From the NCBI GenBank assembly GCA_016192705.1, contig JACPTQ010000040.1, positions 54,936-116,547 on the forward strand: 61,612 bases of DNA, written 5' to 3'. Both the position numbers and the translations under genes were made by a program. Shown piece after piece: positions 8,797-61,612 of this stretch. The DNA comes from Deltaproteobacteria bacterium (GTDB taxonomy: Bacteria > Myxococcota > JACPTQ01). The notes beneath the pieces were generated by a model. That model was not told the origin of the DNA, ran no database searches, and was given only the letters and a program-made list of their open reading frames with translations. The number at the start of each line of letters is the position of its first letter. Position 1 is the first letter of the stretch.

Positions 8797-9267
8797 CTAC
8801 CAGCGGTAATGGGCAAACGCCTTATTCGCCTCCGCCATCTTATGCGTATCGTCGCGCTTCTTGACCGCGTTCCCGCGCCCCTGCGACGCCTCGAGGATTT
8901 CGCCCGCGAGCTTTTCTTCCATCGATTTCTCGTGCCGTTCACGTGCGTAGAGCCCAATCCACCGCATGCCGAGTGACACACGGCGATCGGGGCGCACTTC
9001 GACCGGAACCTGATACGTCGAACCACCAACGCGCCGGCTTTTGACTTCCACCGCCGGCTTCACGGCGTCGAGCGCTTTCTTGAAAATCTTGACGGGATCG
9101 TCCTTCGTGCGTTCATGAATCACGTCGAACGCGTGGTAAACGATCCGCTCGGCAATCGCCTTCTTGCCCTGCTCCATGATTCCGTTGATGAACTTCTGGA
9201 CGAGCTTATCCTGATATTTGGGATCCGGAAGAATCCTACGTTTCGGAACTTCTCTGCGACGCGGCAT
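8797..9267 (-). CDS. rpsG: 30S ribosomal protein S7
   Basis: S7 nucleates assembly of the small-subunit head; in E. coli it is also the str-operon autorepressor. The product is 156 residues. It begins [23 protein letters not shown] and shows the [19 protein letters not shown] loop, [15 protein letters not shown] and the ending [14 protein letters not shown], all characteristic. It is separated from rpsL by 15 bases and from fusA by 29 bases. Confidence 0.98.
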
Positions 9268-9282
9268 GGTTCCTCCTTACCC

Positions 9283-9666
9283 CTACTTCGCCCGCTTCAC
9301 GCCGTACTTCGAGCGGCTTTGTTTGCGCGGCGACTTCGGGTTTTGAACACCGGCGCAGTCGAGTTGTCCTCGAATGATGTGGTAGCGAACACCCGGAAGG
9401 TCCTTGACGCGGCCGCCTCGGATCATCACAACCGAGTGCTCCTGAAGGTTGTGTCCTTCGCCCGGGATATACGCCGTCACCTCGTGGCGATTCGTCAAGC
9501 GAACACGCGCGACCTTACGAAGCGCCGAGTTCGGCTTCTTCGGCGTCGTGGTGTAGACGCGAACGCAAACACCACGTCGTTGCGGGCACTCCTGCAACGC
9601 GGGCGCCTTGTCGCGCGCCTTGAGTGACACTCTCGCTCTCCTGACCAGCTGATTAATCGTCGGCAT
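9283..9666 (-). CDS. rpsL: 30S ribosomal protein S12
   Basis: S12 contacts the decoding centre. An in-frame extension upstream exists, but the conserved start [12 protein letters not shown] at 9666 is preceded by AGGA at good spacing, so that is the start (127 residues). The [18 protein letters not shown] loop and the [16 protein letters not shown] loop both carry the lysines found in streptomycin-sensitive strains of other species. It is the first gene after the promoter at 9799-9826 and heads the str/S10 transcript. Confidence 0.98.
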
Positions 9667-9788
9667 TCGTCCTAACCCTTCGAAATCGTTCAGCCCAATC
9701 CCAAAAAACCAATGGCCGCAAACGCCCTTCGTCTCGCGCCAAGCCTCCAAAAAGCCGGGCGAATCCGCTAAAGATCGCTCGCCAAAAG

Positions 9789-9820
9789 GAAGGCGCGCAT
9801 TATATGGAAATCGCGCCTTC
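9789..9820. repeat. Inverted repeat overlapping the rpsL promoter
   Basis: GAAGGCGCG at 9789-9797 is perfectly complementary to CGCGCCTTC at 9812-9820. The arms bracket the -10 box and fill part of the -10/-35 spacer. It could be an operator, a hairpin ending the rpoBC transcript, or both. There is no long T-run, so an intrinsic terminator is not certain. Confidence 0.6.
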
Positions 9821-9826
9821 TGTCAA
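9799..9826 (-). promoter_or_regulatory. Consensus sigma-70 promoter for the str/S10 operon
   Basis: On the minus strand a perfect TTGACA (9821-9826) is followed after 16 bases by a perfect TATAAT (9799-9804). The -35 box starts five bases beyond the rpoC stop codon, and transcription would run into rpsL about 130 bases downstream. This gives the str/S10 genes a start independent of rpoBC readthrough. Confidence 0.85.
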
Positions 9827-9830
9827 TAGG

Positions 9831-14003
<4,173 letters not shown>

Positions 14004-48808: not shown

Positions 48809-49260
48809 CTTCGCGTCTTCCTGCCCACGTCAACAATCAACCGGGCGAAATCTGCGCGAATTGTAGTTCTATTCCCGCCACGATTGCAAAGGATTGTGGA
48901 ATTCGTTCCGCGACGGGCTGCTATCCTACGGATCGGCGGGGCATTGGCTCGCTCCGACTCGCAAACGTCCTCGGGTCTGCACAAACATCATGGTGAATGG
49001 ACGTCATGAGGTCATGCGAGCATCCGATGTCTTCCGACGCCATGACACCCCAGACCCTGCGGATGCGAGCCTGCGCTCGCCTATGCCCCACCGATTCACC
49101 GAGACTCCGCACCGTCTCACCGAGACTCCGCACCGTCGCAGAACGCCACGATCCGGCTTGGGGGCGACACGACCTCTCGTCGATACGAACAGCGCTTGGC
49201 TCCCTCCGACCCGAAATCACGATCGACATTTCTAGGCCAGATCTGGTAAAGGTGGGTGTC
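48809..49260. other. Intergenic region between divergent genes
   Basis: This 452-base gap separates the ATP-grasp-like gene and the radical SAM gene. An in-frame extension of the radical SAM ORF enters it but has no protein-like conservation that I can see. It holds the tandem repeat at 49096-49137. No convincing promoter pair could be picked by eye. Confidence 0.5.
49096..49137. repeat. Two-copy 21-base tandem repeat
   Basis: The unit TCACCGAGACTCCGCACCGTC occurs twice with no spacer, identical in all 21 positions. It lies in the leader of the radical SAM gene. Confidence 0.85.
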
Positions 49261-50283
49261 ATGTTCGGGACTTCGACCGTCTTGAAACGCACGCACATGC
49301 CGCCGCCGCGCGAGTGGAAAGGGCCGACGCTGTACGACTTGATCAAGGTCGGTTTTTTCGCGTTCGGATTTCCAAAAAACGGATTCGTGTCGGTCGATAC
49401 GACGAACCGGTGCAACTTGCGGTGCCGACACTGCTATTTCTTTGAGCAAGATTACGAGGAAAAACCGGAGCTGACGCTCGACGAGTGGTTCGCGAAGTTC
49501 GAGGCGCTGAAGAAGGCCGAGCCGTGGCGATTCCCATTTTTTCAGTGCACGTGGGTCGGCGGCGAGCCGCTCTTGCGTAAGGAACTCATCGAGCGCGGAC
49601 GAAGCTTTTTTATGTACAACACCGTCGTCACGAACGGTACGATGCCGCTCCCCAACTGGCCCGACGTCAATTGGTATGTGTCGATCGATGGCCTCGAAGA
49701 GCACCACGAGTACATCCGCAAGGCGAAGGGCATCTACAAGAAGATTAAGCGCAACATCATGAACATGACGGCCGACCGCGGCGTGACGATCGCGTGCTGC
49801 TTGACGAAGCAAAACTGCGGCGACATCGAAGAACTTGTGATCGAGTGGAGCCAAGTGCCGGGCGTCAAGCACATGGTTTTCGATTTCTACACGCCGATCG
49901 AATCGATCGACGACGACCTTTGGCCCGGCTGGGAAATGCGCGACCGCACGATCGACGTCTTGCTCGAAATGAAGAGGCTGTACGGCGATTTTCTCGTGAC
50001 GCCCGCGCGCACGTTTCGGATGATGAAGTCGGAAAATGCGGCGCAGGTGACCGAGAACTGCCTCTTCGAGAAAAAGGCGACGTCGTTCGCGCCGAACGGC
50101 GAGGCGAAACCAAAGTGCATGCTGGGCGAAAAAGCCGACTGCACGCGCTGCGGGTGTGTGGTGCCGTACTACATGGCGTCGCTCACGAACCGCTCGTTTA
50201 TTCTGGGCGATCATCTCGCGAGCGTGCGGAATTTCTTCGCGAACGTCGGCACGCGCTCGACATCGCTCACACACGCGATTTGA
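49261..50283 (+). CDS. Radical SAM protein with C-terminal cysteine cluster
   Basis: The ATG at 49261 follows AAAGGTGGG, giving 340 residues. The radical SAM cluster motif CNLRCRHC is at residues 51-58 and the SAM-binding GGEP at about 103. The C-terminal part holds further cysteines (CMLGEKADCTRCGCVV), which could ligate an auxiliary cluster as in SPASM/twitch or HpnH-type enzymes. A conserved EWKGPTLYDLIKVGFFAFGF lead segment precedes the core. Reaction unknown; peptide or lipid modification are candidates. Confidence 0.85.
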   Translation: MFGTSTVLKRTHMPPPREWKGPTLYDLIKVGFFAFGFPKNGFVSVDTTNRCNLRCRHCYFFEQDYEEKPELTLDEWFAKFEALKKAEPWRFPFFQCTWVGGEPLLRKELIERGRSFFMYNTVVTNGTMPLPNWPDVNWYVSIDGLEEHHEYIRKAKGIYKKIKRNIMNMTADRGVTIACCLTKQNCGDIEELVIEWSQVPGVKHMVFDFYTPIESIDDDLWPGWEMRDRTIDVLLEMKRLYGDFLVTPARTFRMMKSENAAQVTENCLFEKKATSFAPNGEAKPKCMLGEKADCTRCGCVVPYYMASLTNRSFILGDHLASVRNFFANVGTRSTSLTHAI

Positions 50284-50340
50284 TTTGACCGACTTCATCG
50301 GCCAGAATTGTCCATAAGCCCATTCACGAAGGGGACGCCG

Positions 50341-52266
50341 TTGAAGAAACTCTTTCGACCTTCATGCGGATTGCTGATTCTCACAGCCAGCGCGTGCACG
50401 ACCGTTACGCAAAGCACCGATTCGACCGTGAGCGTCAGCCACGTGCTCCCGAACAACTTCGCGCTCTCGGCGGTTGTAAGCGAAGTCGAGATGGTGCTCG
50501 ATGAGCCGACCGATGCGGGCGCTCTGTTCGCGGCGCCGACCGCTACGATGGTCGCGCGAACCGACGACGGCTACAACCTCAACATCTATACGGAGGATGT
50601 CGACCAAGACGGGCGCGTCGAGATGCGACTCCAGGTGCTCGGGAATCCGTTTGCGTCGCGAAAGCTTTGGACGTTTTCGAAAGCTGGGTCGGCGCTCGGG
50701 AATGGGTTTTGGATTCGCGCGAAGTTGTATCGGGCGGACGGCGGCGCGAAGGAGACCATCGCAACGGCCATGGCGACGTCGACCGACGATTTAAAGACGA
50801 TCCAATTTGGCGGCGGGCTGAAGAAAGTGTCGCTCGTTTATGCCTGTGCGAGCGGCGTCGCGTGCGTGAGCGATGGCGGTGCAAGCGCGGATGCGGGAGC
50901 GGCAGCGGACGCCGGGGCGGGCGCGGGAGCAGATGCGGGGGCGGATGCAGGTGCGGACGCGGGAACGGACGCCGATGCGGGCGCGGATGCGGGTGCCGAC
51001 GCGGGAGCGGCAGCGGATGCGGGCGCGGACGCGGGTGAAGATGCGGGCGCGGACGCAGGACCACCCGGCTGCGGCGCCGCGGCTCTCCTCGAATCCCTCG
51101 ACGGGAACAGTGGCACCCCATCCATCGCGCAGGATACCGCGGGCAATGCCCTCATCGTCTGGGCCCAGTATACCAACGCGGGGAGAGTAGCGATTTGGGC
51201 GGCCGTCCAACCATCCGGCAGCGGCTGGTCCACGCCCGAAGTGATCGACTTCTTAGATGGCGGGAATTCTGATTCCCCCGCCCTGGCCATGGCCAATAAC
51301 GGTACCGCAATCGCCGTATGGAGGCAGCCGTCGATCTGGGCAAATCGCTACGTACCAGGAATCGGATGGGGCGATGCTGGCGTGATCGAGATCGGCGCGC
51401 AAGCCGTCTACACCCCGCGCGTTCGAGCCGACTCGACCGGAAACGCTATCGCCATCTGGGCGCGAGCCATGGGCGGGGGACTGTTTCATCTTTTTGAGAA
51501 TCGTTACGTCGCCGACGCCGGATGGGGCGGCGAGGGCGCGCTTGCGACACCGTCGACCGGCTTCGTGAACCTGACGCAGCTCGCGCTTAGCGCGACCGGC
51601 TCCGGTGTCGCCGTCTGGGAGCAGTATAACGACGCAGGTTACGACGTCTGGGCCGCGCGCTTTGTCGACGCCGGATGGCTTGCACCCGAAGCCCTTGAGG
51701 CATCGTCGAATTCGGCGGAAGCCCCGTGGGTCGCCATCGACCCGGCCGGAACCGCGACCGCTGTTTGGCGGCAACAAAGCGGGGCGTTTCAAGCGATTTG
51801 GTACAGCCGCGCGTCGCCCGGCGGCTCGTGGTCGGCACCCGCGCTCGCCGAAACCGTGGCCGGGAGCGGCTCCTACGCACCCCAGGTGGTCGTTGATGAT
51901 ACGGGGGTCGTGACCCTCGCGTTTGCGAACTCCGTCATATACGCGAATCGGTTTGTCCCCGGCGCTGGCTGGGGCGACGCGGGCGCGGTCGACAATTCGG
52001 TTGGTTCGATCCTCGACTCACTCTCGTCTAACGCGGCGGGGACAGCCTGGGTTACCTGGCGCTACTCCGTCAACGGGCAGTTCAACTTGCTCTCGAATCG
52101 ATTCACGGCCGCGACCGGGTGGAGCCCGGCATATCCCGTCGAGACGAGCGACGCGGGGACCGTGTGGGTGAGCGGACTCGCCGTTGACTCATTAGGCCGC
52201 GCAAGGATCGTTTGGTCGCAAAACGATGGAACGCGCGACAACATTTGGGTGAACCAATGTCAATGA
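50341..52266 (+). CDS. Lipoprotein: DxDxDG module, DAG linker, propeller-like repeats
   Basis: A TTG start at 50341 after AAGGGG encodes 641 residues. Signal peptide with lipobox TASAC (Cys19). Residues ~30-180 form a module shared with the next gene (DEPTDAGALF, DDGYNLNIYTEDVDQDGRVEMR, GSALGNGFWIRAKL, IQFGGGLKKV). A DAG-repeat linker of about 60 residues follows. The rest is about eight repeats of 45-55 residues with a shared pattern (GNAxxVWxQ, then NRYVPGxGWGDAG), typical of a beta-propeller. It is probably surface-exposed. Ligand unknown. Confidence 0.8.
   Translation: MKKLFRPSCGLLILTASACTTVTQSTDSTVSVSHVLPNNFALSAVVSEVEMVLDEPTDAGALFAAPTATMVARTDDGYNLNIYTEDVDQDGRVEMRLQVLGNPFASRKLWTFSKAGSALGNGFWIRAKLYRADGGAKETIATAMATSTDDLKTIQFGGGLKKVSLVYACASGVACVSDGGASADAGAAADAGAGAGADAGADAGADAGTDADAGADAGADAGAAADAGADAGEDAGADAGPPGCGAAALLESLDGNSGTPSIAQDTAGNALIVWAQYTNAGRVAIWAAVQPSGSGWSTPEVIDFLDGGNSDSPALAMANNGTAIAVWRQPSIWANRYVPGIGWGDAGVIEIGAQAVYTPRVRADSTGNAIAIWARAMGGGLFHLFENRYVADAGWGGEGALATPSTGFVNLTQLALSATGSGVAVWEQYNDAGYDVWAARFVDAGWLAPEALEASSNSAEAPWVAIDPAGTATAVWRQQSGAFQAIWYSRASPGGSWSAPALAETVAGSGSYAPQVVVDDTGVVTLAFANSVIYANRFVPGAGWGDAGAVDNSVGSILDSLSSNAAGTAWVTWRYSVNGQFNLLSNRFTAATGWSPAYPVETSDAGTVWVSGLAVDSLGRARIVWSQNDGTRDNIWVNQCQ
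50886..51060. repeat. DAG-codon low-complexity array
   Basis: This stretch is built from 12- and 6-base units coding Ala-Asp-Ala-Gly (variants of GCGGACGCGGGA). The codons vary at third positions, so selection on the peptide pattern, not only slippage, probably maintains it. Confidence 0.75.
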
Positions 52267-52802
52267 ACGTGCGGACATGGGCGGCGCTGGCGGTTCTTGC
52301 GATGGCGTGCGCGTGCAGCACCGCAACGATAGATACAAGCAACACGGTCAGCGTGCGGCACCAACTGCCGAATGGGTTTGCGTTTCGGAGCACGGTGAAC
52401 GAAGTCGAGATGCTGCTCGACGAACCGGCCGACGCGGGCGCGCTTTTCGCGAGCACCGCCGCGACGATGGTCACGACGACCGACGACGGCTACCCGCTTA
52501 ACATCATCACCGAAGACGCCGATGGCGACGGGCGCGTCGAGATGCGCATCGTCGTGCTCGGGAGCGTCTTCGCATCGCGCACGGCGTGGACGTTTGACAA
52601 GGCGGGGAGCGCGCTCGGAAACGGGTTCGTGATTCGCGCGAAGCTGCGGCGCCCCGACGGCGGCGTGATGGAAACCGTCGCGACGGGCGTTGCGACAACG
52701 ACCGACGATTACAAGACGATTCAATTTGGCGGCGGCCTAAAGAATGTTACTGTTCTTTACGACTGCGCGCCGGGCGTCGCCTGCGTGACCGACGGCGGCT
52801 GA
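52257..52802 (+). CDS. Stand-alone paralogue of the DxDxDG module, lipoprotein
   Basis: The 181-residue product starts at an ATG overlapping the end of the previous gene; a second ATG six bases later is also possible. The lipobox is around MAC/CAC (Cys18 or Cys20). It then matches the N-terminal module of the 50341 protein nearly end to end: SVRHQLPNGFAF, DEPADAGALFA, DDGYPLNIITEDADGDGRVEMR, GSALGNGFVIRAKL and TIQFGGGLKNV, ending at VACVTDGG where the other protein begins its DAG linker. It is thus the module without a repeat domain. Confidence 0.82.
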   Translation: MSMNVRTWAALAVLAMACACSTATIDTSNTVSVRHQLPNGFAFRSTVNEVEMLLDEPADAGALFASTAATMVTTTDDGYPLNIITEDADGDGRVEMRIVVLGSVFASRTAWTFDKAGSALGNGFVIRAKLRRPDGGVMETVATGVATTTDDYKTIQFGGGLKNVTVLYDCAPGVACVTDGG

Positions 52803-52830
52803 CAAGGCCCTTCAATCACACGAGGTTTTG

Positions 52831-54441
52831 ATGCGCACATCTTTACGACCGTTTCTTATTATCGCGTTCGGCTTTGCCACCACTTGCTCGTCAGAAACAG
52901 CCTCCACAACGCCACCCGCAGATGCGGGAACGAAAACCGACGCGGGAGTTGACGCGGGTACCGTTGCGGATGCGGGCACGGGTTCGGACGCCGGCTCATG
53001 GACCGCGAGCGTCACGGCGGCGAAAACGGGTGGCACCATCATCGACGGCGGCGCGATTTATTCGTCGACGAAGCTGCTCATCGGATGGAGCGCGACGTCA
53101 CAAGCGATCGACCACTTCGCCATCACCGCGAGCGAATCGATCGGCGGCACCGTCACGACAGCGAGCGCCGATGCGGGCGTCATGAACGCCACGCTCATGG
53201 GGCTTAAATCGGGAACGACGTACGCCATTGCGGTCGCCGCGTGCGTGAACGCTGGATGCACCACGATGCTCGCCGCCACTGGCGCCGACGCTTCAGCGAC
53301 GACGGAACAGGAGTTTTACAGAATGGTCGGCTCGGGCAACACCATGAGCGGCTGGGACGCAGGCGTTTGGGCCGTGCCAGACGGCATGACGCTCTCGCAC
53401 GTCTTTCGGTATGGCGCCGACGCGGGCGCGTCGCTCGAAGGGAAGCTTCAGATGGCTTACAACGTCGACCCGGCCATCGGTGGTTACGGCAAAGGGCTTT
53501 GGGGCGCGCGGCTCGCGACGATTCCGACGGCAGCCGACGCCGGCTCGCTCTACCCATTCACGCCGTTCGGCGGTTCGTACATGCTTTCAAACCCAGACGC
53601 CGGCGGCACATCCGACGTAGCCGCGTATAACGCCATCGGAATGCCGGTGCCACTCGGCGGCACACTCGGCGCAAAGATTCGGCTCTTCTTAGAAGGAACC
53701 GGCTCTGACGGTCGATCGCGCATTCTTTCGCTCGACAGCACGGACGGCTACGAAGGGAAAGATTTTCATGGCGGCTCGGCGACGGTTTGCCTCACGAACG
53801 CCGATTACTCGGGCGATGGCGGCTGCGCGCTGACCCGCGTCATCAAGGTCGAAGCCGACGACGCCGGCAACACAAACTTGCGCGACGCGCGCCAATTCAA
53901 GATCGGATACCCGACGATGACCGATTGGCGATGGAACGGCGAGCCGGGGACGTTCATGGTCTTCACCGTTGACCTCATCAACGAAGGCCCGTGTGGCATC
54001 GTTGGGTCCGACTTCACGTCGGGGTACGCCGTTTACGACGGCATAAAGTGGGACGTGCAGTACGACGGCGGGACGTGCCCGAAGCTCTTTAGAAACGTTC
54101 GCGTGCCCAACCCCGTTCACCTGGGAGCCGCAACCTACAAGATGTACTTCACCGACGACCGCGATGGCGGCAACCAACAAAAGCGCGTCGCGTACGCGCA
54201 CGCGGGGCGAACAGGCAATCCAGCGTACGTCGACTTCGAGGATTGGGAAGACACGGTCACAGAAGCGCGCGACGTGAATTTCTTGTGGCCCGACGGCACG
54301 CTCATGGCAAGCGACTATGAACGCCCGATGGACGATTTCTCGTTCCTCATGCCGACGAACGACGTCAATTTCCAGGTGATGTACTCGAACTTCGGCATGC
54401 CGATGCCGCACATCGCCGTGCTCATCCTCGTGAATCCGTAA
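52831..54441 (+). CDS. Large lipoprotein with DAG linker and FN3-like region
   Basis: The ATG at 52831 follows GAGG and encodes 536 residues with a lipoprotein-like signal (ATTC, Cys19). A DAG linker (residues ~28-58) leads to a fibronectin type III-like region (SVTAAKTGGTIIDGG, WSATSQAIDHFAIT, LKSGTTYAIAVAACVNAGC). The remaining 380 residues are one large unrecognised domain with scattered DG, DAG and EDW motifs (YVDFEDWEDTVTEARDVNFLWPDGTL). It lacks the DxDxDG module of its two upstream neighbours. Surface adhesin or sugar-binding roles are possible. Confidence 0.78.
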   Translation: MRTSLRPFLIIAFGFATTCSSETASTTPPADAGTKTDAGVDAGTVADAGTGSDAGSWTASVTAAKTGGTIIDGGAIYSSTKLLIGWSATSQAIDHFAITASESIGGTVTTASADAGVMNATLMGLKSGTTYAIAVAACVNAGCTTMLAATGADASATTEQEFYRMVGSGNTMSGWDAGVWAVPDGMTLSHVFRYGADAGASLEGKLQMAYNVDPAIGGYGKGLWGARLATIPTAADAGSLYPFTPFGGSYMLSNPDAGGTSDVAAYNAIGMPVPLGGTLGAKIRLFLEGTGSDGRSRILSLDSTDGYEGKDFHGGSATVCLTNADYSGDGGCALTRVIKVEADDAGNTNLRDARQFKIGYPTMTDWRWNGEPGTFMVFTVDLINEGPCGIVGSDFTSGYAVYDGIKWDVQYDGGTCPKLFRNVRVPNPVHLGAATYKMYFTDDRDGGNQQKRVAYAHAGRTGNPAYVDFEDWEDTVTEARDVNFLWPDGTLMASDYERPMDDFSFLMPTNDVNFQVMYSNFGMPMPHIAVLILVNP

Positions 54442-54499
54442 GGTTGGCTTACCGACTTTTCGAATATCCGCCGTGCGGTGAGCGAACGAACCATCGCGT

Positions 54500-54518
54500 C
54501 GCCGTCGAGCGGACGGCG
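54500..54518. terminator. Hairpin between convergent lipoprotein genes
   Basis: CGCCGTC, loop GAGCG, GACGGCG: a perfect 7-bp stem in the 88-base gap between two converging stop codons. No T-run is present on either side. Confidence 0.45.
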
Positions 54519-54529
54519 GTTCACTCTTC

Positions 54530-57500
54530 TTACTCCAAGAGTCCGGTGATCGCGTCGATCGGGGCGAGGTTGGTTTGGCTAACGCCGCCGATTGTCAAAA
54601 AGCCGCCGCCGGCGTAGACCGTCACCGTGCTTCCGAGAAGCGCATAGACGTTGCTACTCGCGTTCGGGTTCCACGACAGGAGCTGGCCACCGTCGGTCGC
54701 GAACGCCGCGAGTCGGTTTCGCGTCGTAGCGCCGCCCATGGTCGTGAACGTACCGCCCGCGTAAACCACCCCACCTGAGACCGTAAGCGCGTAAACGTAA
54801 TTGCCCGCGTTCGGGTTCCAGGGGAGGAGCCCGCCGTCGGTGTCGATCGCGGCGAGGTAGTTTCGCGTCTCGCCGCCGACCGCGCTGAACTCGCCGCCCG
54901 CGTAGAGTGTCCCTCCGCTCACCGCGAGGGCTTTGACACCGTACCCCGAGAGGGCAGTGACGTCGGGATCCCATGCCAGAAGCCCGCCGTCGGCGTCGAT
55001 TGCCGCGAGTTTGTTCCTCGTTAAGCCGCTGATCGAGGTGTAAGTCCCTCCGACGTAGACCCTTGACCCGCTCACGGCGAGCGAATTTACGCTGCTATTC
55101 GCGCTCGGGTTCCACGGGAGGAGCCCGCCGCCGGTGTCGATCGCGGCGACGTAGTTTCGCGTCTCGCCGCCGACCGCGGTGAAATCGCCGCCCGCGTAGA
55201 CCACCCCACCAGACACTGCGAGCGCATTGACACCGGCGTTCGCGTTCGGGTTCCACGGCAAGAGGATGCCCTCCGTCCCGATCGCCGCAAGGCGGGTTCG
55301 CGTTCCGCCATCGATCGCGGTGAAGTCGCCACCTGCGTAAACCGTCGACCCGGTCACCGCGAGCGCGCGAACGACGCTATCCGCGTTCGGGTTCCAAGGT
55401 AGGAGTCCGGCATCGAGATCAATCGCCGCGAGGTAGCTCCGCGTCTGGCCGCCGACCGCGGTGAACTGGCCGCCCGCGTAGACCGCCCCACCGCTTACCG
55501 CGAGCGCAAAGATGCTGCCGCCACTTGCGCTCGGGTTCCACGAGAGAATCCCGCCATCGGTGTCCACTGCGGCCAGGCTGGAACGGTTGCTGCCGCCGAC
55601 CGAGGAAAAGCTGCCGCCCAGGTAAACTGTCGATCCGGCCACCGCGAGTGCATAGACAGTCGGGAACGAACCCAGATTCAGATTCCACGGTAGGAGCCCG
55701 CCATCGGTGTCGATTGCCGCGAGGCCGGTCCGCGAGGCTCCGCCGATCGTCGAGAACTGCCCCCCCGCGTAGATCACCCCATCGCTCACCGCGAGCGAAT
55801 AAACGAAGAAGTTCGCGTTCGGGTTCCACTGGAGAATCCCGCCGTCGGTGTCGATCGCCGCGAGGCGGTTTCGCGGCTGGCCTCCGATCGTCAAGAATGC
55901 CCCTCCAACGTAAACCGCTCCACCGCTTACCGCGAGCGCCTTGACCTCGTCGGCAGCGTTCGGGTTCCACGGCAAAAGCCCACCGTCGGTGTCGATCGCT
56001 GCGAGGCGGTTTCGCGGCTGGATACTGATCGAGGAGAAATTGCCCCCCGCGTAGATCACCCCATCGCTCACCGCAAGCGCATAAACGCTGCCGGCCGCGT
56101 TTGGGTTCCAGGCGAGGAGACCGCCGTCGAAATCGATTGCCGCGAGCCGGTTCCGCGGCTGGCCTCCCATCGAGGTGAAATAGCCGCCTGCGTAAACCAC
56201 CCCATCGCTGACCGCGAGCGCATGAACTCCGTTGTCCGAATTTGGGTTCCAGGCGTGGAGCGTGCCATCCGCGTTGATTCTGGCAAGGCGATTTCGCGGA
56301 ACGCCCCCCACGCTCGTGAAATAACCCGCGATGTACCATCCGCCCGCGTCGTCGGGTATCGCCGCGTTGATTTGGCCGTCGTCGATCGTGAGCGGATCCG
56401 CAAACGCGAGCTCACCGGTTGTGTTGTTGAGCACCGCGCCGGGACCCGTGAACCGCCCCATCCGCGTGAACCAGCCGCCCAAGTAGATCGTGCAACCTCT
56501 GCGCGCCATCGCGTAGACGATGCCGTTCGGGACCCACCTCGCGATCGCGCTCACGGGGGGACAGTCGACGAGCGAGTCAATCGTGACCGCGAGGACAGGT
56601 GAGTCAGCGCTCTCGTTCCCCGCAGTGTCGACGGCGCGTGCGGTGAAAAGGTAGTCCCCCTCCGCGAGAGCCGACGACGTCACGGTGTACGCGCCCGTGC
56701 CATCCGCTGTCGTCGTCGCGACGGGCGCGCCACTCGCGTAGAGCCGCACCGTCGCGCTTGCTGGTGCACCGCTCCCGTTGAAAGTGGGCGTTGTGGCGCC
56801 CGTGATGTTGTCGGTGCTCGATGCCCCGGTGTCGCTCGACGCGATGAGATCGGGAGCGCCCGGCGTCGAGAGCGGCGTCGTGTCGATCGTGATGCTGAGC
56901 GCGGCCGACGCATCGCTCACGTTTCCCGCGTCGTCTTGCGCCTTGACGGTGAACGTGTAGACGCCGTCCGTGAGCACCGACGATGTCACCGAATAGGCGC
57001 CCGTGCCGGTTGTGCTCGCCGTTCCAACGAGCGTGCCGCCGTCATGATAGAGGCTCACCATCGCGAACCCCTCGACCGTTCCCGTGAAGGTTGGAGTCGC
57101 GTTGTATGTGATGTTGTCCGCGCTCGACGCCCCGGTATCGCTCGCCGCGGAAAGATCCGGCGCGCCCGGTGCGGCTGGTGCCGTGCTGTCTTCGATGTAA
57201 GGGATCGCCGCGTTGAGTGCCGTGCAAAGCCCGACGTTCTCGCCGAGATCGACAATCCGCCCATAGAAAACCGTCGATGTGTTGTCTGGAACCGCGACGG
57301 TGACCGCGAATTGGCCGGCGTCGTTTACGGTGCCGGTTGTCGGTGTCGCCGTGCAAGTCGCGTCGCCCGCGTAGATTCGAATCGTCGTGTTCGCCTCGGC
57401 GGTGCCGGCGACGATCGGCGCGTTGTTGTTCGCGGGGCCTTGCGGAATAACTCCCGTCCCGACGGGCGCCGCGGGGGGCGTCGTGTCGATCGTTCCCGCG

Positions 57501-58009
57501 CACGAATATCCGACGCGGCACGGGATGCTGAAAGTCACCGTTTTCGGCTGCCCCGACACAAATCGAAGGCTGGTTCCGTCGTCAAACGCTTCCTTCGCGG
57601 CACGCTCGCTCTTCCCGCCCTGCATATTCACGACGACGCCGAGACTCATCACGACCGATTCCGGCAGCGACCCAGAAAACGTGAAGGTAAACGTGCCGCC
57701 CGCAAACGGGTTCTCGGCGAACGTTACGCAGAATTCGTTTCGCGTGTCGCCGTCGCAATCTTTGACTTCAGACGTATAAACCCGGCCGCCCGTCGACTTC
57801 GTTGATGCGCTCTGCGCCGTCCAGTTGAGCCCGGCATCGCCCGGAGCATCGAGAAAGAGAACGAGACCTGTGATGAGGGTTGCGTCGAATCCCGAGCCGA
57901 GGTTGATCGTCGCGACGATCTTGCCCTCCGTCCCCGTGTTCGTCGCGCAGCCAAGCGGCGCAAGCAGGACCACGGTGAAGTGCAACAGCCGCCGCCTGGA
58001 ATTGAACAT
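54530..58009 (-). CDS. Giant lipoprotein: DxDxDG-like module, Ig-like repeats, 14 propeller repeats
   Basis: The ATG at 58009 after AAGGAGGGG encodes 1,159 residues; lipobox PLGC (Cys21). Residues ~30-175 resemble the neighbouring module (LDAPGDAG, DCDGDTRNEF, NPFAGGTFTFTFSG). Three Ig-like repeats follow, with the pattern PGAPDL, SDTGASSxDNIT, TPTFxG. From about residue 500, fourteen repeats of ~44 residues carry YAGGxFTxxGG, RNxLAAIDxDGGLLxWNPNA and ALAVSGG. Fourteen units could form two seven-bladed propellers. The repeat family resembles Delta-60/DUF5122-type repeats. It is likely displayed at the cell surface. Confidence 0.85.
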   Translation of the reverse strand: MFNSRRRLLHFTVVLLAPLGCATNTGTEGKIVATINLGSGFDATLITGLVLFLDAPGDAGLNWTAQSASTKSTGGRVYTSEVKDCDGDTRNEFCVTFAENPFAGGTFTFTFSGSLPESVVMSLGVVVNMQGGKSERAAKEAFDDGTSLRFVSGQPKTVTFSIPCRVGYSCAGTIDTTPPAAPVGTGVIPQGPANNNAPIVAGTAEANTTIRIYAGDATCTATPTTGTVNDAGQFAVTVAVPDNTSTVFYGRIVDLGENVGLCTALNAAIPYIEDSTAPAAPGAPDLSAASDTGASSADNITYNATPTFTGTVEGFAMVSLYHDGGTLVGTASTTGTGAYSVTSSVLTDGVYTFTVKAQDDAGNVSDASAALSITIDTTPLSTPGAPDLIASSDTGASSTDNITGATTPTFNGSGAPASATVRLYASGAPVATTTADGTGAYTVTSSALAEGDYLFTARAVDTAGNESADSPVLAVTIDSLVDCPPVSAIARWVPNGIVYAMARRGCTIYLGGWFTRMGRFTGPGAVLNNTTGELAFADPLTIDDGQINAAIPDDAGGWYIAGYFTSVGGVPRNRLARINADGTLHAWNPNSDNGVHALAVSDGVVYAGGYFTSMGGQPRNRLAAIDFDGGLLAWNPNAAGSVYALAVSDGVIYAGGNFSSISIQPRNRLAAIDTDGGLLPWNPNAADEVKALAVSGGAVYVGGAFLTIGGQPRNRLAAIDTDGGILQWNPNANFFVYSLAVSDGVIYAGGQFSTIGGASRTGLAAIDTDGGLLPWNLNLGSFPTVYALAVAGSTVYLGGSFSSVGGSNRSSLAAVDTDGGILSWNPSASGGSIFALAVSGGAVYAGGQFTAVGGQTRSYLAAIDLDAGLLPWNPNADSVVRALAVTGSTVYAGGDFTAIDGGTRTRLAAIGTEGILLPWNPNANAGVNALAVSGGVVYAGGDFTAVGGETRNYVAAIDTGGGLLPWNPSANSSVNSLAVSGSRVYVGGTYTSISGLTRNKLAAIDADGGLLAWDPDVTALSGYGVKALAVSGGTLYAGGEFSAVGGETRNYLAAIDTDGGLLPWNPNAGNYVYALTVSGGVVYAGGTFTTMGGATTRNRLAAFATDGGQLLSWNPNASSNVYALLGSTVTVYAGGGFLTIGGVSQTNLAPIDAITGLLE

Positions 58010-58875: not shown

Positions 58876-58995
58876 CCGCTCCCGCTACCGCACCCGCACC
58901 CGCTCCCGCTCCCGCGCCCGCTCCCGCTCCCGCGCCCGCTCCCGCTCCCGCACCCGCTCCCGCTCCCGCGCCCGCACCCGCATCCGCATCCGCTT
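58876..58995. repeat. Hexanucleotide array (CCGCNN) x 20
   Basis: Twenty uninterrupted six-base units all share CCGC, followed mostly by TC, GC or AC. It lies between the stop of the small helical protein and the leader of the four-helix-bundle gene. Frames through it encode only dipeptide repeats (for example Arg-Glu), and I do not consider it coding. Confidence 0.9.
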
Positions 58996-59085
58996 TCCCT
59001 TCGTTCGTGCCTCCTTTCTCGCCGCCTCATGCGACCCCATCCGGTTGGTGAGGGCCGCATTCGGCGGCTTCGAAAGGAGTCCCTC

Positions 59086-59439
59086 ATGTCTCATCGGTTC
59101 ATCGCCTTCGACGTTGCGCTGGAGTTCGCCAATCGCATTCGTCCAGTGCTTGATTCGCTTCGTCGCAAAAACCGCGCACTCGAAGATCAGCTTCGGCGCG
59201 CGGTTGCTTCGGTGGTTTTGAATATCTCAGAGGGCGACGGCAAATCGTCACTTCGCGATCAAGCCCGCTTCTTCGAAATCGCGCGTGGGTCATGTCGCGA
59301 GGCACGAGCCGCGCTTCGACTCGCAGCGCTGTGGGGCTACGCCGACGACGCGACAGTCGCCGCACTCGACGCGCTCGGCGATCGAGTATGCGCGCTGCTG
59401 TCGCGCCTTATCGCACGAGCTTCGTCAGCATCGCGATAA
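59086..59439 (+). CDS. Four-helix-bundle protein (S23/Avd-like)
   Basis: The ATG follows GAAAGGAG; 117 residues. The sequence has the four-helix-bundle pattern of 23S rRNA intervening-sequence (S23) proteins and of the Avd fold: FDVALEFANRIRPVL, LEDQLRRAVASVVLNISEGDGKSS, then RDQARFFEIARGSCREARAALRLA and a final helix LLSRLIARA. No reverse transcriptase or variable-protein gene is near, so a diversity-generating element is not indicated. It converges on and overlaps a paralogue by 32 bases. Confidence 0.87.
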   Translation: MSHRFIAFDVALEFANRIRPVLDSLRRKNRALEDQLRRAVASVVLNISEGDGKSSLRDQARFFEIARGSCREARAALRLAALWGYADDATVAALDALGDRVCALLSRLIARASSASR

Positions 59440-59758
59440 CCCGGGACAACAAGTGACCGATCTCTTTCGGTGCATCGTCGATCAAGTCCAGCAGCGCCGC
59501 ACTCTCGCACGCTTCGCCGCGCGCGATGGCGTAACACCGACGTTTGTCGGCCTTTGCGACTCGCCCCGCGCCTTCCGCGGTATTCGTAAGGACTGAGAGC
59601 GACGCCCGACGAAACTGATCACGAAGCACTTGATTCGCGATCGGAAGTCGCTGAGCGATCCGGGCGAAGTCGCGGGCGACACGGAAGCAGTCGAGGCGTT
59701 CGAGGGACGAGGACGCGGAAACGGTAGCGGTAGGGGTTGCGATAACGGGAAGCGGCAT
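59408..59758 (-). CDS. Four-helix-bundle protein (S23/Avd-like), convergent paralogue
   Basis: The ATG at 59758 follows AAGGAG; 116 residues. The motif order matches the plus-strand neighbour: LDCFRVARDFARIAQRL, LRDQFRRASLSVLTNTAEGAGRV, CYAIARGEACESAALLDLI and the final helix HLLSRVIAMLTKLV. The two genes face each other and share their last 32 bases in antisense. Both leaders contain the same CTTCGAAAGGAG sequence. Confidence 0.87.
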   Translation of the reverse strand: MPLPVIATPTATVSASSSLERLDCFRVARDFARIAQRLPIANQVLRDQFRRASLSVLTNTAEGAGRVAKADKRRCYAIARGEACESAALLDLIDDAPKEIGHLLSRVIAMLTKLVR

Positions 59759-59789
59759 CGGGTTCTCCTTTCGAAGTGGTGAGCCGAAT

Positions 59790-59834
59790 CTTTCGGCCCT
59801 TAACCGAAGCGAGGAGCGCGAAGGGGGCCGAAAG
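59790..59834. repeat. Inverted repeat in the leader of the minus-strand helix-bundle gene
   Basis: CTTTCGGCCC (59790-59799) and GGGCCGAAAG (59825-59834) are a perfect 10-bp inverted repeat with 25 bases between. It lies after the stop of the SH3-domain gene on the minus strand and may end its transcript. Confidence 0.5.
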
Positions 59835-59867
59835 TGAGGCGAACCGAAGAAAGAAGAACCCGCGACC

Positions 59868-59919
59868 GCTACCGCTCCCGCAACCGCTCCCCCTCCCGCC
59901 CCCGCTCCCGCCACCGCAC
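59868..59919. repeat. Short degenerate CCGCTC array
   Basis: Units such as CCGCTA, CCGCTC, CCGCAA and CCGCCA repeat the motif of the array at 58876-58995 in a less regular form. The two arrays flank the convergent four-helix-bundle pair in the same orientation. Confidence 0.6.
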
Positions 59920-59963
59920 GACGAACGCGACGACGGGAACCAGCGAGAGCGTGGTGCCGAAAT

Positions 59964-61612
59964 CTAACGCGCTGGGCAACTCCCGAGCGCGACGTGCTGT
60001 GCCGCGATGTAGCCGACTTTCCCTTGCCACTCGATCTTCGTCCACGTGAGACCGCCGCCCGTGACGCTCTTCTCAAGCACCTTGAACTCTTTGCACGGAC
60101 GTTTGAAAAGCATCACGTGGATTCCAGCCGTCTTTGAAGGTTCTTTGCGCATGTAGATCCCATCGCCCGTAAGGTAACCGATCTCGCCGGCGGTCTCAGT
60201 CGCACCACCGCTCTCGGTCCCACCCGACTCGGTTCCGCTCGGCGTTCCGGGCGGCTCCTCAGTCGTTTTGGTTCCCGCTCCCGTTTGACCGCCACCGCTC
60301 GGCCGAATCGTCAGTGGCCTCGGCGCCGTGCAACTCTGGGCCGCGCGCGACATCTGGTTCTGGCAAAGGTGAACAACCGGCTTCTTGCAACTCGGCTGGC
60401 CCCTTCCCTTTTCGCATCGCGCGGCGGGCCACGCCCAATTCATAAACGTCCGCCCCTTCTTAATCGCGCACTTTTCAACGTCCGCGCCAAACGCTTTCCG
60501 CACAACCTTCGTCATGTCGTCGAGGTCACGATACCGCGCGCCGCGCTCGCGCTCCTTCACGAGCCGCGTACAGACGCTCTTTCCCCAACCGGTCGCCGTG
60601 CACTCGAGCGCCGCCATCACGTTTGGATTCATCTTCCCGAGGCATGCGCCAGGCGGCCCCGGTCGGATAATCGGTCGAACCGGCGTTACAACGGGCGGTA
60701 TTGGCTGAACTGGCTGAACTGGTTCAACCGGCTCGACGGGGTCCACCGGCTCGACAACGGGTGGCTCCGCGGGCTTAACCGCAGAAGTCTTCGCGCACTT
60801 TGAGATGACGTCGATAATTCCGCCGCGGCAACTCCCCGACAGCGACACCGGGCGCCCCGCAAGCCAGCTCTTTACGTTTTCGACCTGCAGCGTTCCCGAA
60901 CAGTACGACAAGCACGTCGCCGTCGCGGTCGCTTTGCCGCCCACCTTGATGCCCTGGCCCTCCTTTGCGGCCTTGAGCCCAACGCTCGCTTGCGCCCCCA
61001 TCGTGACGTCGATCGACCAACTCCCCGCGCCCGTCCAACCGCCAGCGGCAAAGAACTTTGATGGACTTAGCGACTTGATGACCGACTTCAGCCCGCCCGT
61101 CGAAACACCGCTCTCAACGCTCCCCTTGAACGCAACGGTTCCAACCGCGGCGAGCCCACCAGAAATCCCAGCCCCGCCTTCGGTCGTCCCCTTGACCCCA
61201 GCCCCAACCTCGACCGCCCCTGACCCGCTCACTTCGACGCCCAACTTGTACGGCCGATCGGCGTTGAGGCACTTCTTTAGCCCCGACGTCGCCATTTTCA
61301 AGTTACCCCAATTCTCAGACGCGTCGATCCCGCAGTCGACCGTAATCTTTCCGGCGGCACCACCCCCAACAGCGACGCGCCCCTTGAGCGACAGCAGCTT
61401 CTGGATGGTGACGCCGAGCTCTCCCGAAAGCTCGCCTTTGAGCGCAACCGAAAACGTGATCTTTCCATCTTTGCCGATAACGAAACCGCCACATCCACCA
61501 ATCGCCGTGCTCCCGCCGACCGACAGAACATCCTTAATGAGGTCGCCTTCGCCGGTCAGGTCGCCGCCCAAGCAAAGCTCCGAGCTCGACTCCGTTAGAA
61601 TCCCGCGCGCAA
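59964..61612 (-). CDS. SH3-domain protein, 5' part outside window
   Basis: The frame is open to the window edge, so the start is missing; 549 codons are present. The visible N-terminal half is a Gly/Ser/Val-rich region with alternating pattern (GAVEVGAGVKGTTEGGAG, GGLAAVGTVAFKGSVESG), which suggests a repetitive beta-structured surface domain. A Pro/Val/Glu linker (EPVDPVEPVEPVQPVQ) and a Cys-rich segment follow. The last ~75 residues resemble a bacterial SH3 domain (GDGIYMRKEPSKTAG, WTKIEWQGKVGYIAAQHV), often found in cell-wall-binding proteins. Function unknown. Confidence 0.75.
   Translation of the reverse strand, partial: ARGILTESSSELCLGGDLTGEGDLIKDVLSVGGSTAIGGCGGFVIGKDGKITFSVALKGELSGELGVTIQKLLSLKGRVAVGGGAAGKITVDCGIDASENWGNLKMATSGLKKCLNADRPYKLGVEVSGSGAVEVGAGVKGTTEGGAGISGGLAAVGTVAFKGSVESGVSTGGLKSVIKSLSPSKFFAAGGWTGAGSWSIDVTMGAQASVGLKAAKEGQGIKVGGKATATATCLSYCSGTLQVENVKSWLAGRPVSLSGSCRGGIIDVISKCAKTSAVKPAEPPVVEPVDPVEPVEPVQPVQPIPPVVTPVRPIIRPGPPGACLGKMNPNVMAALECTATGWGKSVCTRLVKERERGARYRDLDDMTKVVRKAFGADVEKCAIKKGRTFMNWAWPAARCEKGRGQPSCKKPVVHLCQNQMSRAAQSCTAPRPLTIRPSGGGQTGAGTKTTEEPPGTPSGTESGGTESGGATETAGEIGYLTGDGIYMRKEPSKTAGIHVMLFKRPCKEFKVLEKSVTGGGLTWTKIEWQGKVGYIAAQHVALGSCPAR

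Follow-up and report, generated by a model that had tools for sequence, protein, structure and literature searches.

A predicted beta-sandwich lipoprotein module combined with unrelated beta-propeller families in a single deltaproteobacterial genome

Three lipoprotein genes, which we call P1, P2 and P3, lie in a 61,612-nucleotide stretch of contig JACPTQ010000040.1 (positions 54,936 to 116,547, forward strand; assembly GCA_016192705.1) from a deltaproteobacterium placed in the Myxococcota (JACPTQ01). We refer to this whole stretch as the window. A first-pass annotation, made from the letters alone, had described the three proteins as sharing an N-terminal module of ~150 residues in front of different C-terminal parts: an Asp-Ala-Gly (DAG) linker and eight repeats in P1, nothing further in P2, and immunoglobulin-like (Ig-like) domains plus 14 repeats in P3. 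The open frames and their translations bear out both the positions and this anatomy. In window coordinates the features are:

50341-52263, + strand: P1, open frame of an eight-repeat lipoprotein (open reading frame, ORF, and translation)
50341..50397, + strand: P1 signal peptide and lipobox ASAC; TTG start, lipidated Cys codon at 50395-50397
50395..50865, + strand: P1 module copy; loop DVDQDGRVE, C-x5-C at its end
50872..51063, + strand: P1 Asp-Ala-Gly linker; predicted disordered, predicted local distance difference test (pLDDT) score below 50
51064..52263, + strand: P1 propeller, eight repeats of ~50 residues; similar in predicted fold to seven-bladed propeller lectins of the PLL type
52257-52799, + strand: P2, signal peptide and bare module (ORF, alignment, model)
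52314..52799, + strand: P2 module, counted from the lipidated Cys; loop DADGDGRVE, pLDDT 95
58009-54533, - strand: P3, 1159-residue lipoprotein made up of module, Ig-like stalk and propeller repeats of the DUF5122 type (ORF, Pfam)
57500..57949, - strand: P3 module copy, from the lipobox Cys; loop DCDGDTRNE
56570..57493, - strand: P3 Ig-like region, Big_13 / Big_6 (Pfam)
54533..56521, - strand: P3 array of 14 repeats of 46-50 residues, DUF5122 beta-propeller (Pfam, repeat analysis)

The DAG-rich linker of P1 is a tandem array (50890-51060), and an upstream in-frame TTG at 50308 is a possible alternative start for the gene. The 3' end of P1 is overlapped by 10 bases by the start of P2, and the pair is a putative operon. 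In P3, Pfam identifies two Big_13 Ig-like domains, and PF17164 (DUF5122) matches the C-terminal half with a score of 106 bits (cut-off 27; E 9.9e-31).

The motifs originally quoted for the module, D(E/A)P(x)DAG and an Asp-rich loop, are correct in all three sequences: the modules open with LDEPTDAG, LDEPADAG and LDAPGDAG in P1, P2 and P3, and the loops read DQDGRVE, DGDGRVE and DGDTRNE, respectively. The P1 and P2 modules are 68% identical over 169 residues. The P3 module is more distant, with 27% identity to that of P2 over 165 residues (E=2e-5 in a pairwise test). A tblastn search with P2 of the genome it comes from (88 contigs, 5.21 Mb, 96.65% complete) gave 38 matches. A profile (A1) built from 39 aligned copies matched the genome 45 times at E<=1e-13, with the next match only at E 0.3; these 45 modules are distributed over 40 genes, five of which carry a tandem pair. 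The three copies first noticed are therefore real, while their number greatly understated the scale of the family. The P3 module matches the full profile at E 1.5e-40, and still scores E=1.1e-19 against a profile that leaves out its entire clade and is built from the other main clade. None of 1,400 shuffled modules reached E<=10, and the two main clades can be aligned end to end. These profile results place it beyond doubt that the modules of P1, P2 and P3 are one homologous family.

By inspection, a Cys following a hydrophobic signal peptide and preceding the module is present in at least 38 of the 40 proteins. The exceptions are L166 (L numbers denote individual loci), which is ambiguous, and L049, where the Cys lies some 20 residues further upstream. 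Asp occupies position +2 in only one of the 40. Some loci are damaged. L045 (C51:74715-75173) comprises a 170-codon module frame, one TGA and then a 936-codon RCC1 frame in the same phase, which points either to a disrupted gene or to faulty assembly; L028 (C55, about 9000-11000) becomes Arg-rich and apparently out of frame past the module, which suggests a frameshift. A 25,300-codon module frame on contig C76, considered as a giant protein, was rejected as an artefact, as ~72 kb of it (C76:7000-80000) consists of N.

The P2 module was modelled with AlphaFold2 from a 39-row alignment, giving a mean pLDDT of 95 and a predicted template modelling score of 0.88, with nine beta-strands and no notable helices. 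The P1 module likewise folds confidently in a separate prediction, and the two models give no sign of unrelated folds. The module is confidently predicted to be a single nine-strand beta-sandwich. The best-conserved positions over the 39 copies are D36 (38/39), D70 (37), D72 (38), E76 (38), F86 (37) and C151 (37), and the C-terminal C-x5-C pair, which presumably forms a disulfide, is among the most conserved features. The loop D68-x-D70-x-D72-(G)-x-x-E76 is nearly invariant and resembles the loops of FG-GAP and PL11 proteins. It agrees with the Dx[DN]xDG motif at D68 (31/39), D70 (37/39), D72 (38/39) and E76 (38/39), with the position-6 Gly retained in only 21/39 copies. At least twelve protein families bind Ca2+ through this motif (PMC3123361), and the module loop is probably a metal site, with calcium as the likely ion.

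Searches for a known relative of the module were negative. No Pfam-A or NCBIfam family scored above its curated cut-off in a scan of 39 module members; the best widespread Pfam match, FG-GAP_3 (E 0.0085), is confined to the loop. We rejected the module as an FG-GAP or integrin-type propeller repeat, since the likeness is limited to the loop and the model is a single nine-strand sandwich. Profile comparison with PDB sequences returned PL11 rhamnogalacturonan lyases and CRTAC1, which share the DxDGDG loop alone, as well as weak matches to BAX and FimA, taken as chance in view of a fold search without significant results; both sets were discarded. A Foldseek search of the PDB and viral models with the P2 model found nothing at E<=1e-3, and no significant structural match to the CnaB or pilin Ig-like fold was found in the PDB (best template modelling (TM) score 0.33). 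The suggestion that the module is undescribed thus holds across the Pfam, NCBIfam, PDB sequence and PDB fold searches, none of which returned a characterised domain.

What follows the module differs from protein to protein. A Pfam scan took in all readable module proteins (L045, L028 and the C76 gene being broken or masked), and about 32 of 37 end in a beta-propeller. The heads assigned by Pfam are RCC1 (L021, L047, L035, L163, L172, L162), NHL (L023, L024, L025, L033, L029, L036, L038), Kelch (L026, L046, L032) and DUF5122 (P3, L048, L044, L022, with L164 below cut-off). In ten further proteins, P1 among them, the DAG linker leads into a BNR-like repeat for which Pfam gives a weak match or none. 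Ycf48-like repeats were recognised by eye in L027. The proteins made of module only are P2, L049 and L040, the last with two modules. The stalk may be a DAG linker, a series of tandem Ig domains (L172) or a set of 11 Calx-beta domains (L162); fn3 is another stalk domain type. The long-stalk proteins, which have many Ig or 11 Calx-beta domains, reach 2,768 and 2,779 residues. P1, the one protein modelled among the ten BNR-like members, shows a disordered linker (pLDDT below 50) followed by four-strand units. Its propeller matches PLL/PHL lectins in Foldseek (E 1.7e-11, probability 1.00, target TM 0.64); a comparison with PDB sequences gave no PLL-type lectin match at E<=1.

Mapped onto a tree of the 45 modules, the five large classes of propeller require 13 changes. 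Sister modules with good support differ in what they carry: those of P3 (DUF5122) and L035 (RCC1) are 65% identical with support of 99/85, those of L021 (RCC1) and L022 (DUF5122) are 67% identical (100/95) and are followed by unrelated remainders, and P1 (BNR-like) pairs with the bare P2 (100/99). The occurrence of closely similar modules with different propellers indicates that module and propeller have recombined repeatedly. Head type is still partly clustered on the tree, as expected if heads were exchanged occasionally and not at each duplication. Repeated exchange of the C-terminal part across the genome is strongly supported by these sequence comparisons, which extends the variable C-terminal domains noticed in the window to the whole family. 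The association is also far more frequent than chance would give: the module is found in 6/20 RCC1 frames and 6/19 NHL frames (P about 1e-8 each, assuming 4,700 genes). Even without the module, propeller proteins are unusually numerous in this genome: ~20 RCC1 and ~19 NHL frames occur in its 5.2 Mb, and many of them are lipoproteins.

The first-pass annotation had proposed looking for the same arrangement in related genomes, where we did not find it; the relatives compared belong to the same phylum and all to other classes. The GroEL sequence in the window is most similar to those of Syntrophorhabdales and Anaeromyxobacter (79%), which makes the genome deltaproteobacterial in the older sense of the name. 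The module profile gave nothing convincing in 194 phylum mates, in 34 named genomes, in 379 genomes of the Kofleriaceae phylum or in 395 genomes of the Syntrophorhabdales phylum, about 1,000 genomes altogether. The large searches scored only the best candidates per genome, 9 for the 379- and 395-genome sets and 19 for the phylum mates, and under the 19-candidate setting the module's own genome was still matched 19 times. No module relatives were found on plasmids, nor in GTDB and viral contigs, where the search used one stringent pattern, IQFGGG[LAE]K, and counts as weak evidence. A distant bare cousin, L081, occurs in a phylum mate of another class (G006). This 218-residue lipoprotein matches at E 8.5e-4, aligns with the module at an hhalign probability of 96% over 111 columns, and in the reverse search matches one module of the present genome (E 0.003). 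On the strength of L081, the module domain is probably older than this genome. The expansion and the coupling to propellers appear lineage-specific as far as the sampled genomes show. In the open-access literature searched we found no description of a single base domain that is shared by 40 paralogues and has been recombined with several propeller families unrelated to each other.

Several genes neighbour the module genes in the window. Immediately upstream of P1 is a gene for a radical SAM enzyme (P5, about 48997-50283), and 26 bases past P2 on the same strand is P4 (52828-54441, +), a DAG-rich fn3 lipoprotein that lacks the module; P5, P1, P2 and P4 may form one operon. Two four-helix genes of the PF05635 (23S-rRNA-intervening-sequence) family are located at 59029-59439 (+) and 59408-60076 (-), flanked by CCGCTC-type repeats of 6, 12 or 18 bases (58876-58994 and 59859-59917). 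PF05635 relatives are also near the module loci L162, L025 and L172, making four module loci in all. Such genes are related to Avd, a protein of diversity-generating retroelements. A retroelement of this kind near the module loci was considered and rejected, as no match to the reverse transcriptase RVT_1 (PF00078) was found in the 96.65%-complete genome. An all-against-all comparison of neighbours likewise gave no conserved partner gene beside the modules.

The architecture of the family, a lipid anchor, a constant base, a stalk and an exchanged propeller head, is read directly from sequence and structure prediction. We propose, with a probability of roughly 0.6, that the module is a lipid-anchored base or adaptor that mounts interchangeable binding propellers on the outer membrane. 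Following secretion, the acylated Cys would hold the protein in a membrane, most likely in the outer leaflet of the outer membrane. Beside the Cys, the ~150-residue beta-sandwich would sit on the membrane, stabilised by its Dx[DN]xDG-type loop with bound metal, probably calcium, and closed by the C-x5-C disulfide. A flexible DAG linker or a rigid Ig, fn3 or Calx-beta stalk would then carry the propeller at the far end. With the base held constant and the propeller swapped or re-amplified, some 40 surface binders for glycans or proteins could have arisen, apparently a lineage-specific set of receptors or adhesins. We infer the outer-membrane surface location because the stalks would be too long for the periplasm and Asp +2 is nearly absent. 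The surface display and the calcium-like site suggested in the first-pass annotation are reasonable suppositions. The heads would bind glycans or proteins, for which the likeness of the P1 propeller to fucose-binding PLL lectins is the best single lead.

A number of observations weigh against this proposal. The same genome encodes propeller lipoproteins that start with DAG, Ig, Calx-beta or Cys-rich parts in place of the module, which shows that the module is dispensable for anchoring a propeller. L165 and L166 bear Ig or Cys-rich parts instead of propellers. Since P2, L049 and the double L040 are bare, the module may serve some function independent of a propeller. Five of the 40 proteins have Lys at +2. 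In Myxococcus xanthus, Lys +2 marks inner-membrane lipoproteins and Ala +7 matrix ones; +2 sorting rules vary between lineages, and the rule of this host may differ (PMC3222651).

The bare proteins lend themselves to another explanation, in which the module is not a passive base and itself binds, for example, outer-membrane glycan, lipopolysaccharide or peptidoglycan, alone or beside a propeller. The three module-only proteins and the five with tandem modules favour it, and the beta-sandwich is a common binding fold. However, the conserved residues are mostly structural (the loop acids, F86 and the Cys pair), and we consider this explanation rather unlikely. The same tandem and bare copies would be superfluous if the module were an export or sorting signal, that is, the folded recognition domain of a dedicated lipoprotein surface-export route with the propeller as cargo. 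Such a role would fit its invariably N-terminal position adjoining the lipid anchor and the use of one family for 40 otherwise unrelated cargoes. Considering that other propeller lipoproteins in the genome lack the module, and that the comparison of module-gene neighbours yielded no conserved candidate exporter gene, we find this role improbable. Least probable of all, and in our estimate quite remote, is that the proteins are periplasmic scaffolds resembling BamB, itself a lipid-anchored propeller (cited in PMC9218822), and are held either at the inner membrane or on the periplasmic side of the outer membrane. The Lys +2 members, which bear the inner-membrane mark of M. xanthus (PMC3222651), are consistent with that placement. 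The proteins of 2,768 and 2,779 residues, with their many Ig or 11 Calx-beta domains, would nevertheless be too long for the periplasm if extended, and the number and diversity of paralogues are excessive for a housekeeping role.

If the base-and-propeller proposal is taken one step further, a lineage in its own class would possess a receptor system of 'one base, many heads', in which 40 genes and at least five unrelated propeller families make up a combinatorial repertoire that recognises prey, kin or polysaccharides. We offer this extension tentatively, at less than even odds. Propeller lectins are already known, as are surface proteins with a lipid anchor; the domain family was previously unnamed, and what is added is an undescribed family with a confident fold to which unrelated propeller families have apparently been fitted over and over inside a single genome. 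Should the heads bind different ligands, the genome would contain a large stock of binders suited to surface display, for which the base might be used as a scaffold. The family also offers a natural case for studying the surface delivery of propeller lipoproteins in deltaproteobacterial cells and the growth of receptor repertoires through domain exchange.

Each part of these proteins has a counterpart in known systems. The loop D-x-D-x-D-(G)-x-x-E is like the Dx[DN]xDG calcium loops of EF-hand, dockerin, FG-GAP and other proteins (PMC3123361), but in the module it is set in a nine-strand beta-sandwich and the sequence relation is limited to the loop. The best PDB fold matches of the module, within the all-beta class, are the Streptococcus pilus adhesins Cpa and PitB and pilin Ig-like/CnaB domains. 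These matches are not significant (E 9e-3, TM 0.33) and have no sequence counterpart; moreover, the module is lipid-anchored whereas the pilus proteins are attached by sortase. The propeller half of P1 has the fold of the seven-bladed Photorhabdus PLL/PHL lectins, of which PLL lectins bind fucose (PMC6943638, PMC5584973), but P1 has eight repeats and a lipid anchor, and PLL/PHL lectins are not known to carry the module. The RCC1/BLIP-II, Kelch, NHL and DUF5122 parts are ordinary members of the highly repetitive beta-propellers, which are re-amplified continuously (PMC9218822); in this genome, several unrelated families share one N-terminal base domain. Outer-membrane vesicles of the predatory bacterium Myxococcus xanthus contain an RCC1-repeat protein and many lipoproteins (PMC4158809), although the sampled genomes of the Kofleriaceae phylum yielded no module. 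In its logic, the proposed repertoire is comparable to others that combine a constant anchor with variable tips.

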